From: an uncultured Candidatus Saccharibacteria bacterium
Lineage (GTDB): Bacteria; Patescibacteriota; Saccharimonadia; Saccharimonadales; Saccharimonadaceae
Direction of reading: 5' to 3'
Assembly: GCA_937858705.1 (NCBI GenBank)
Contig: CALLZM010000021.1
Location: 1 to 64,000, forward strand
DNA length: 64,000 nucleotides
Shown here: positions 32,975 to 56,831 of the stretch, one piece after another
How positions within the stretch are numbered: position 1 is the first letter of the stretch
Layout of the letters: each line of letters starts with the position of its first letter
Translations under genes and position numbers: made by a program
Notes under the pieces: model-generated
The model's input: only the letters and a program-made list of their open reading frames with translations
Databases searched by the model: none
Told to the model about the DNA's origin: nothing

Positions 32975-34327
32975 ATGGAAAGAACTGGCGGCTCCGAAGG
33001 TCCTCAAATAGATTTACTTTCACGGCTTGAAGATGATGCGTATGAGGAAGGATGGCTGCAACTTGCCGCCTTACAACAAGTACTCAATGGCGAGCGCGCA
33101 CAGGAAAATATCCCTGAAATTATCGAAGCAGCATATAGACTATTCGGCACAAAAGAATATATCGGAGAAAAAATAGACATCAACGCTTGGTCGTTAGGTC
33201 CGAATGGAAGAGTTGGATACGGTCTTTATAAGGGCCAGTATGAAGGTATAGTAGCCATTCCACTCAACGGGTCAGAAGTGCTAGGATTTATCGACGATAT
33301 TCCTTTTGATGCTAAAACTATGAAAACTATTCTCGCAATTCATCTTATCCAACGGGGCACCACACAAAATAAAGAGACCTTTATACCCCTTGTCCGTGAA
33401 GCTATCCATAGCTTTTCTGTGCATGAAGAGAAAGAACCAGGCCGGGCGCTTTTAATTGTACTACGCCGTATGGCCCAGTCTATTCAGTCCGGACATTCAA
33501 GCACACTGGGAGTTTCGGTAGAGGATGAGCGAGAAATGTGCGAAACTCAGATGAATGTTTTGCTGAACAATTTTATTTCCAGTTACGCTGAGGGGGGGGG
33601 ATTCTTTGTTGTTACCAATGAGTCTTCGCTTCTTTCGTCCAATCATGATATACCAGTGACTGAGCAATCGCGCAATATCATATTGTATGGTGAATCAGGG
33701 AAGATTGTCATCGATGACGACAATGAGAGCAGTCTCATTGTGCGTGCAAGCGATGCACTTCCTCGGAGGGTGCCGATCATTGCCATTAGTGATATATACC
33801 CTGTAGCTGATGAAGTCATCGAGACGACAGATCTTCTTGATACCGTGTTTAATGAGGAATTTTGGACAACCGCTGATTCACTCTCTGAAAAGTTGCTCAC
33901 TCTCCAGCGACAGGGCATCGGCGAGCAACAGATGATCGATGCTTGCGTAAAGGCTGGCGGTATGCTTGAAAAACAAGTACCACTATCCGTTAGAAATACT
34001 TCAGCATATCTCAAGATGAGCGGTGTAGCGTACGAGTACGATCAGCGCGGTAATTTGCAGCAGACGCTCCTCTCAATCGACAGCATCGACGATAGGGGCG
34101 ATATTGTAACTGAATGCCGAGGGTTTGATTTTTACTTCGTAGGAGACAGGTTTATTCCATTGCTTGAGATCCATATCTACACTATCAATCAAGGTGATTT
34201 AGTAGTAGATGAGGGTCTAAAACAAGGGTGGCAAAAATGGCATCCATCGAAAGAATATGGCAATCAAAGAACTGTCTACGCCATGCCGCACAAGAATGAA
34301 CTCGTCGAATTTGAAGCTGCTATCTAA
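32975..34327 (+). CDS. Hypothetical protein (450 aa) with a G9 tract
   Basis: I do not recognise the family. The protein is soluble, acidic and without membrane segments or cysteine clusters. A run of nine G at 33592-33600 encodes the Gly run in EGGGFFVV near residue 207; gain or loss of one G would end the protein early. The C-terminal half alternates strands and helices. A CACAAT -10 lies 9 nt before the ATG. It stands between tgt and tuf on the same strand but with its own promoter. Confidence 0.7.
   Translation: MERTGGSEGPQIDLLSRLEDDAYEEGWLQLAALQQVLNGERAQENIPEIIEAAYRLFGTKEYIGEKIDINAWSLGPNGRVGYGLYKGQYEGIVAIPLNGSEVLGFIDDIPFDAKTMKTILAIHLIQRGTTQNKETFIPLVREAIHSFSVHEEKEPGRALLIVLRRMAQSIQSGHSSTLGVSVEDEREMCETQMNVLLNNFISSYAEGGGFFVVTNESSLLSSNHDIPVTEQSRNIILYGESGKIVIDDDNESSLIVRASDALPRRVPIIAISDIYPVADEVIETTDLLDTVFNEEFWTTADSLSEKLLTLQRQGIGEQQMIDACVKAGGMLEKQVPLSVRNTSAYLKMSGVAYEYDQRGNLQQTLLSIDSIDDRGDIVTECRGFDFYFVGDRFIPLLEIHIYTINQGDLVVDEGLKQGWQKWHPSKEYGNQRTVYAMPHKNELVEFEAAI
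33592..33600 (+). repeat. Homopolymer of nine G inside a coding region
   Basis: Nine consecutive G, preceded by GA and followed by ATT. Tracts of this length are prone to slippage in replication and sequencing. Confidence 0.95.
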
Positions 34328-55745: not shown

Positions 55746-56027
55746 CTACTTCTTCTTTGTAGTAGCTTTTGGCTTGGTATTATTGCCGAGGCGTATCAAG
55801 ACAAGACCGTTCAGAAGAGCCCATGCGATAGCATTGAAGACAAATACACCAAGACATACAAACGATATCGTTACCAGTGTTTGGCCCACTTCGTATCGAA
55901 CGAGTCCGACCAATCCAGCGACAATAATACCAACGATAGCCAGCGCCATATACGCATGCTGTAATTTTATACGAGTATCTGTTTCCTGGTACCATTTGTT
56001 GAGTGAAGACACTATAAACTTGTTCAT
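55746..56027 (-). CDS. Small membrane protein (93 aa)
   Basis: Two hydrophobic segments (about 27-44 and 50-78) and a Lys-rich tail. The family is unknown to me. It is convergent with the TPR gene with no space between. A consensus promoter gives a leaderless mRNA (TATAAT, 6 nt, ATG). Confidence 0.7.
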   Translation of the reverse strand: MNKFIVSSLNKWYQETDTRIKLQHAYMALAIVGIIVAGLVGLVRYEVGQTLVTISFVCLGVFVFNAIAWALLNGLVLIRLGNNTKPKATTKKK

Positions 56028-56033
56028 AATTTC

Positions 56034-56063
56034 ATTATATCACACTATATGCGCTTTTGTCAA
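56034..56063 (-). promoter_or_regulatory. Consensus promoter of the 55746 gene
   Basis: On the minus strand TTGACA (56058-56063), 18 nt, TATAAT (56034-56039), with GTGTGA before the -10 as in the hisS-antisense copy. It is divergent from the pilin-like gene's promoter. Confidence 0.75.
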
Positions 56064-56100: not shown

Positions 56101-56132
56101 TTGACTCAGTATAGGGGGGGGGGTGCTATAAT
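56101..56132 (+). promoter_or_regulatory. Promoter with a G10 tract in its spacer
   Basis: TTGACT (56101-56106), a 20-nt spacer containing ten G (56114-56123), and TATAAT (56127-56132). Both boxes are near consensus, but the spacing is 2-3 nt too long. Loss of two or three G would bring it to the 17-18 nt optimum. This is the layout of slippage-controlled promoters. Confidence 0.75.
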
Positions 56133-56162
56133 ACAAGGCATAACTAATATGAAAGGAAGTGC

Positions 56163-56774
56163 ATGAAAAAACGGTCAGAACGAGGTTTTGGGGTAGTCGA
56201 GGTTATCCTCGTCATTATCATAGTCGCCCTCATTGGCGCACTGGGCTGGCTTTTTTGGGGGCGATCGAATAGCGCATCGACCGAAACAAGTGATACGAGC
56301 AAAACAGAAGAACAAAAACCTTCAAAAAATGACACCAAAGAAGAGGTTAAGACGACAACTGTTTCAAACCAGTATTTCTCTGTTGTGCTACCAGAAGACT
56401 GGAAAGAAGTCGAATGGAAATCGGAAGTAGGCGCACCCAAAGCCTCATACCAGTACGCAAATGAGACTGGAACAGAAATAAGCATATTGGTAGGCTATGG
56501 CGGTTTTGGCAGCGGCGGAGCAGACGGCTCGGCTTCATTTACTATCGCTGGCAACAAGTTTGTCCTCGATAAGACCTACAAACCGTGCGCCACTGTAGAA
56601 GGGCAAAATAACGGCTGTACGCAAGGTGACGGCAAACTCACTCTTGATGCAATAAATTACGATGCAACCTATAACGGCAATAACTACCTCTTCAGATTCG
56701 CAGACACCAAATCTGAGAGCCAAGAAGCCTACAAAGCAATGGCTGCCATAGTTGAAAGCATTGAGCTAAAATAA
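56163..56774 (+). CDS. Type IV pilin-like surface protein
   Basis: 203 aa. The N-terminus KKRSERG/FGVVEVILVIIIVALI has a prepilin-peptidase site: basic leader, Gly, then Phe, and Glu at mature position 5, followed by a hydrophobic helix. After a Ser/Thr/Lys-rich linker (about 38-65) a globular domain of about 135 residues follows, with a Cys pair (KPCATVEGQNNGC) likely forming a disulfide. It may be a minor pilin or a surface protein assembled by pilus machinery, none of which lies in the window. AAGGAAG precedes the ATG. A G10 tract in the promoter suggests on/off expression. Confidence 0.75.
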   Translation: MKKRSERGFGVVEVILVIIIVALIGALGWLFWGRSNSASTETSDTSKTEEQKPSKNDTKEEVKTTTVSNQYFSVVLPEDWKEVEWKSEVGAPKASYQYANETGTEISILVGYGGFGSGGADGSASFTIAGNKFVLDKTYKPCATVEGQNNGCTQGDGKLTLDAINYDATYNGNNYLFRFADTKSESQEAYKAMAAIVESIELK

Positions 56775-56797: not shown

Positions 56798-56831
56798 CTA
56801 AAATAACTGGAGTAAAATCCAGTTATTTTAG
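56798..56831. terminator. Bidirectional hairpin terminator
   Basis: CTAAAATAACTGGA, loop GTAAAA, TCCAGTTATTTTAG: a perfect 14-bp stem with A/T-rich ends. It separates the pilin-like gene from the leftward tRNAs. Confidence 0.8.

Follow-up and report, generated by a model that had tools for sequence, protein, structure and literature searches.

The window, a 64,000-nt stretch of DNA from an uncultured Candidatus Saccharibacteria bacterium, contains at 56101-56132 a promoter in which ten consecutive G residues lie between the -35 and -10 hexamers, upstream of a gene first annotated as pilin-like. This raises the question of whether the tract is a phase-variable switch and whether it stands alone in the genome.

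The promoter at 56101-56132 and the gene behind it

The sequence was read directly as TTGACT-CAGTATA-GGGGGGGGGG-TGC-TATAAT, with consensus matches of 5/6 at -35 and 6/6 at -10 and with an uninterrupted G10 (Table 1). The initial annotation had described two near-consensus hexamers 20 nt apart with ten G in the spacer, which direct reading confirms, and its expectation that loss of two or three G would bring the spacer to 17-18 nt agrees with the 20 nt found. The promoter is predicted from consensus only, and sigma specificity is unmeasured in this lineage. Since the -10 is extended (TGC), transcription may depend less on spacing, and slippage at this promoter may modulate expression in a graded manner rather than switch it. 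The gene starts 30 nt after the end of TATAAT, and no T-run terminator was called after it.

Table 1. Features of the G10 promoter locus in the window
Feature	Coordinates	Strand	Basis
-35 hexamer TTGACT	56101..56106	+	sequence and pattern match
Spacer, 20 nt, CAGTATA-G10-TGC	56107..56126	+	sequence
G10 homopolymer tract, proposed slippage site	56114..56123	+	
Extended -10, TGC-TATAAT	56124..56132	+	sequence
Putative Shine-Dalgarno aaaggaag (AAAGGAAG)	~56152-56159	+	sequence, inference
203-aa protein gene, ATG at 56163	56163..56774	+	
14-bp perfect inverted repeat 3' of the 203-aa gene, possible bidirectional terminator	56798..56831	.	
Promoter of divergent neighbour, TTGACA-18-TATAAT, perfect consensus, without tract	56034..56063	-	
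93-aa membrane protein, divergent, conserved in two congeners	55746..56027	-	

Coupling of the tract to the divergent 93-aa gene was considered and rejected because that gene has its own perfect, tract-free promoter, which provides an internal contrast to the G10 promoter.

The 203-aa product has a prepilin-like N-terminus (ERG/FGVVEVILVIIIVALIGALGWLFW), a low-complexity linker and a C-terminal beta-rich domain with a weak PsbP-like match. A class III signal is present ([KR]..G/F at +1, E at +5; ERG/FGVVE), with a hydrophobic helix at residues 11-31. A single-sequence structure model of low confidence (mean pLDDT 48.6) contains this helix, a disordered linker at 34-73 and a poorly resolved beta-rich domain. 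Of the prepilin-type N-terminus claimed at first, the motif RG/FGVVE and the helix hold up, whereas the Pfam N_methyl model (PF07963) reached only 16.6 bits against a cut-off of 21.2. The gene is thus a weak, borderline pilin candidate, and the other tract-associated members are clear pilins. Short proteins related to the product occur in 43 of the 61 genomes searched, its own included, mostly aligning to the first 60-80 residues; among the homologues inspected in other genomes, none had a G-tract upstream.

Both congeners keep the order of a DNA polymerase III subunit-like gene, a TPR protein, the small divergent membrane protein, tRNA-Thr and tRNA-Tyr, and at this conserved locus both lack the 203-aa gene and its tract promoter. 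In one (G001) the tRNAs directly follow the small divergent gene; in the other (G002) the gap is occupied by an unrelated reverse-strand gene. As the order is kept without the gene, the tract promoter and the 203-aa gene are, judged from gene order, a lineage-specific cassette that was either gained here or lost in both congeners, which is consistent with accessory surface genes.

G- and C-tract promoters across the genome

The 910-kb genome, assembled in 31 contigs and presumably a MAG, contains 35 maximal G/C runs of at least 9 nt and 19 of at least 10. From a first-order Markov model of the window, 0.58 and 0.11 would be expected, respectively. Two of the 35, lying where contigs C26 and C28 end, represent a single locus. 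A G7 pattern matched the window 8 times, compared with 1.38 +/- 1.45 in shuffled sequences (largest 7). Genome-wide, the -35/G-tract/-10 pattern gave 7 matches, one of which (C16) was set aside as a likely binning artefact, and the reversed-pattern control gave 0. At least 10 tracts lie between -35 and -10 hexamers, and a -35 with at most one mismatch was found at the right position for 11/33 tracts versus 1 at a control offset. The locus at 56101-56132 thus satisfies two criteria for spacer-type transcriptional phase variation by simple sequence repeats: a pure repeat tract separates the two hexamers, and the tract is far longer than chance would give and recurs at this promoter position.

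Tracts are also concentrated upstream of prepilin genes, which about 10 of 34 precede (P ~2e-8, assuming 25 prepilin genes among 900). In 454 kb of the genome's own sequence, 21 prepilin genes were recognised by motif and 10 of these had a G/C run of at least 9 nt no more than 130 nt upstream. This fraction is an upper estimate, as the stretches were picked around tracts.

Roughly half of the tracts are in coding sequence or at other sites unrelated to promoters, and those in ordinary coding genes are mostly G9. Because so many are found inside ordinary coding genes, part of the excess may represent neutral expansion in the absence of mismatch repair. One such run in the window, a G9 at 33592-33600, lies off any promoter within a 450-aa forward ORF. 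Three genes carry tracts of 10-11 G/C among their first 30 codons (C6:106095, C6:146289 and C25:32561), one of 365 aa, one resembling Gfo/Idh/MocA oxidoreductases and one resembling lipoproteins, and these could be candidates for translational phase variation.

Tracts of this kind could in principle be produced by two-colour poly-G sequencing error, by misjoins at tracts or by contaminant contigs. The genome is fragmented into 31 contigs, several tracts in relatives are close to contig ends, the ends of C26 and C28 share a 55-mer containing the tract, 2680 bp of C16 match a contig of another genus with 100% identity, and a G14 tract on C9 is followed immediately by an internal part of a collagen-like gene. 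The window tract, however, lies inside a 66-kb contig and between exactly placed promoter hexamers; the geometry is repeated at independent loci and in genomes of few contigs (such as G012), and an artefact would favour neither -35/-10 spacers nor one orientation. An artefactual origin was therefore rejected for the window locus, where we find it scarcely credible, and retained for small contigs, namely C16 and the C9 fusion.

Contig C16 is 4.4 kb long, and the 2680 bp in question are identical to contig C14 of genome G164. Binning contamination or very recent transfer is the likely cause; the contig is doubtful and was not counted as the genome's own. The C9 junction may be either a misjoin or a real deletion. 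The break between C26 and C28 was rejected as proof of length heterogeneity, since the shared 55-mer extends 5' of the tract and the fork must be located elsewhere.

The main form of the tract promoter is TTGAC(A)-N8/9-G9..12-TATACT, with the start codon 12-14 nt after the tract. It is found on C2 (40392), C6 (114643), C18, C26/C28, C30 and C31, with a less clear -10 at the C6 site and a weaker -35 (TTGATT) on C18. The products of all main-form sites have N-termini typical of type IV pilins (for example, MHKTKTGFTIVELLIVIVVVAIL). Six tract-associated prepilin genes (on C2, C6, C18, C30, C31 and the minus strand of C23) pass the N_methyl cut-off. In a second form the tract is followed by TGC (TTGAC-G10/11-TGC-TATAMT or TATTAT); it is found before the 203-aa gene at 56163, before C6:251130, which encodes a 333-aa membrane protein, and before a gene on C20 for a 253-aa paralogue-like protein. 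Two pilins have a C-tract in the spacer instead, TTGACA-C10-TGGAAG-TAAAAT on C23 and TTGCAC-C8-ATTCAGTGC-TATCAT on C14. The own-genome copies range from G9 to G12.

Tract-bearing pilins are orphan type IV pilin genes located away from the core pilus machinery. The exception is C14, where a single pilin of the cluster carries a tract; the pilins clustered with type IV pilus (T4P) machinery on C6 (30-50 kb) are tract-free. Surface genes lie behind tracts on C6, C20 and C21, including a collagen-repeat protein at C6:51450 (Pfam Collagen, 2.7e-25), and the doubtful contig C16 carries a further collagen-repeat protein behind a tract.

At C23 11124-11188, two divergent pilin genes have one G10/C10 tract in common within an intergenic region of ~60 nt, an arrangement reminiscent of the divergent hifA/hifB region of Haemophilus influenzae.

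Reverse transcriptase genes were met twice near tracts. On C27:13200-16200 there is a diversity-generating retroelement (DGR; positions 117-300, 401-1510 and 1729-1912 of that stretch) with an RVT_1 reverse transcriptase (1.3e-11) between two 187-nt repeats that are 72% alike and whose mismatches are concentrated at template A (21, versus 5 at G). Its reverse transcriptase gene has a G11 tract at the 3' end. A 466-aa Fib_succ_major-like surface protein on C25 has a related variable end (2961-3267 of C25:20000-39999), and a G10 tract lies ~100 nt ahead of its gene. Another reverse transcriptase gene (C6:71416-74425) breaks into two frames precisely at a G13 (C6:72912-72924), with an in-frame TGA just upstream, and is either phase-variable or decaying.

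Relatives, spacer lengths and mismatch repair

The initial annotation had suggested looking for the same tract in related genomes. The pattern TTGAC-N7..12-G8-N0..7-TATAMT, searched in 295 genomes of the family, was listed at 42 places in 19 genomes and 12/61 genera, against 1 for the reversed-pattern control, so the architecture does recur in relatives, although the two congeners had no pattern match and no G10 tract at all. The family is placed by a member genome, G267, of which 3027 bp match JAFWHT010000036.1 (Candidatus Saccharibacteria bacterium) without a difference. Genes behind tracts in the relatives encode pilins (two in G036), secreted or TIG-like repeat proteins, collagen-like proteins and membrane proteins. 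Outside the family, a search of 287 genomes of the phylum added only G418, with four near-identical promoters of the form TTGACAcGCGCaTGA-Gn-TATACT (n = 10, 9, 8, 10). In G418 the module tttttTTGACACGCGCATGA-G8..10-TATACT stands before four different genes, one of them ABC-transporter-like.

Among the matches listed in a GTDB genome scan were Streptobacillus, a Helicobacter and many gut Clostridia and Bacilli, the last two groups with frequent matches in MAGs of uncultured members. Restriction of the architecture to Saccharibacteria was accordingly rejected, and promoters with poly-G spacers are apparently an under-described class of phase variation in gut bacteria. Also among the matches listed was a Candidatus Ancillula MAG with the pattern on three contigs, and viral contigs gave 8 pattern matches.

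MutS (PF00488) is absent from the genome under study and from 20 relatives, and was found in 11/14 control genomes. Its absence would leave slippage uncorrected by that route. It also suits neutral growth, in which G-runs merely drift to 9-14 nt wherever they are tolerated, in promoter spacers as elsewhere, with no selected switch; the many tracts at promoter-unrelated sites point the same way. Neutral growth of this kind nevertheless does not predict the fixed TTGAC-N8/9-G geometry, the concentration on pilins and surface genes, or the bias to G (C8 in the same geometry occurs in 0 of the 295 family genomes), and the relatives are equally without MutS, yet most of them, the two congeners included, have no G10. 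We regard it as an unlikely account of the tract promoters.

Spacer lengths bear on whether a G-rich spacer could instead be kept at constant length. In 333 kb of the genome's own sequence, ordinary tract-free promoters (TTGACn-N-TATAMT) had spacers of 17-18 nt in 19/25 cases. Tract promoters (45, comprising those of the family and G418 and excluding C16) had spacers of 15-23 nt, only 17/45 of them at 17-18 nt (Fisher P 0.003 versus ordinary promoters). A constant spacer that keeps the promoter weak or serves as a regulator's binding site, and does not switch length, would agree with the preserved -35 flank and -10 despite non-optimal spacing and with the identical G10 length of three promoters in G262. 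It is contradicted by the G8-G14 range between otherwise similar promoters and by lengths on both sides of the optimum, and a pure run of ten identical bases is in general a poor binding site and inherently unstable. We consider this reading very unlikely.

Spacers of the genome's own tract promoters are mostly 18-20 nt, so that most of the assembled states would be weak or off. In most of them loss of 1-3 G would restore the optimum, and the 15-nt class seen in relatives would need to gain two G.

Proposed switching and comparison with known systems

From the sequence we think it highly likely that the G10 tract would act as a contingency element, giving slippage-driven transcriptional phase variation as part of a multi-locus surface "phasome". 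DNA polymerase would slip on the homopolymer and add or remove G residues; the changed count would shift the -35/-10 spacing, from the 20 nt assembled to 17-18 nt after loss of two or three G; and the promoter of the prepilin-like surface gene would thereby become stronger or weaker, in a reversible way and randomly from cell to cell. Slippage and length variation within the population are inferred, as is the effect on transcription. The phase-variable reading put forward at first is supported by the recurring geometry, the difference in tract length between copies, the off-optimum spacer and the absence of MutS. Its notion of a single such promoter has to be revised: the switch architecture is present at 56101-56132, and the tract is not isolated, being presumably one member of a genome-wide set of G-tract and some C-tract promoters that would cover orphan type IV pilins, collagen-like and other surface proteins.

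A promoter of this design is known from the porA gene of Neisseria meningitidis, in which slippage in a poly-G between -35 and -10 changes spacing and transcription. The G-homopolymer in the spacer is as here, whereas porA is a single locus encoding an outer-membrane porin in an unrelated phylum, and we are dealing with many pilin loci in a Patescibacterium. A repeat in the spacer of the hifA/hifB fimbrial promoter of Haemophilus influenzae reportedly controls pilin, with divergent genes and a variable combined promoter region; the repeat is a TA dinucleotide. The likeness lies in a promoter-spacer repeat controlling pilin and perhaps, for C23, in the divergent arrangement; the difference lies in a TA repeat serving chaperone-usher fimbriae at one locus, as opposed to homopolymers before type IV pilin-like genes at ~10 loci. 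The hifA/hifB work (van Ham et al. 1993) is among the references of PMC11868660.

Campylobacter jejuni NCTC11168 has 29 loci with a poly-G/C tract of at least seven (PMC4965091), and its phasome resembles the present set in having many G-tracts in a small genome, surface genes and combinatorial phase states. The switching that PMC4965091 describes works through tracts inside reading frames, in contrast to the promoter spacers that dominate here, with N-terminal coding tracts in the minority. Within the CPR, Gracilibacterium BD1-5 has a hypervariable repeat gene for which slipped-strand mispairing was cited (PMC6851277); this too is repeat-driven variation, but of a coding 9-mer repeat in one gene and not of promoter homopolymers in a set. 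The saccharibacterium Nanosynbacter lyticus TM7x also has type IV pili, with two T4P systems and 12 putative pilins, and these pili mediate host binding and twitching; the part of PMC12206443 available for these statements describes no homopolymer promoters or phase variation.

Our literature search on Patescibacteria and Saccharibacteria found no phase-variable homopolymer promoter and only the BD1-5 coding repeat (PMC6851277), in line with the earlier remark that no phase-variable pilin-like promoter is known to have been described in Saccharibacteria-like organisms. The mechanism is thus of a known kind; the novelty, within the literature searched, lies in the lineage that carries it, in how many loci there are and in their concentration on pilins.

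Saccharibacteria live attached to other bacteria, and with tract promoters at 10 or more pilin or pilin-like genes and several other surface-protein genes, the arrangement suggests random variation of the host-contacting surface. Sibling cells would then present different surfaces for host-cell contact, a role that is inferred. In its widest form, ~10 orphan pilins, the collagen-like proteins and perhaps a surface protein diversified by the DGR would each have their own slippable G/C-tract promoter. Each cell would then have a random pilus and surface, and chance would help organisms without mismatch repair to reach, retain or exchange their hosts; we find this combinatorial pilin phasome in a Patescibacterial epibiont plausible and could as readily be wrong about it. 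The genome-wide set is in any case more interesting than one promoter. If it operates as proposed, cells of one clonal population would differ in the structures on which host contact depends, which could bear on host range, the course of host-cell infections and phage resistance; judging by the literature searched, no homopolymer phasome would have been described earlier for this phylum.
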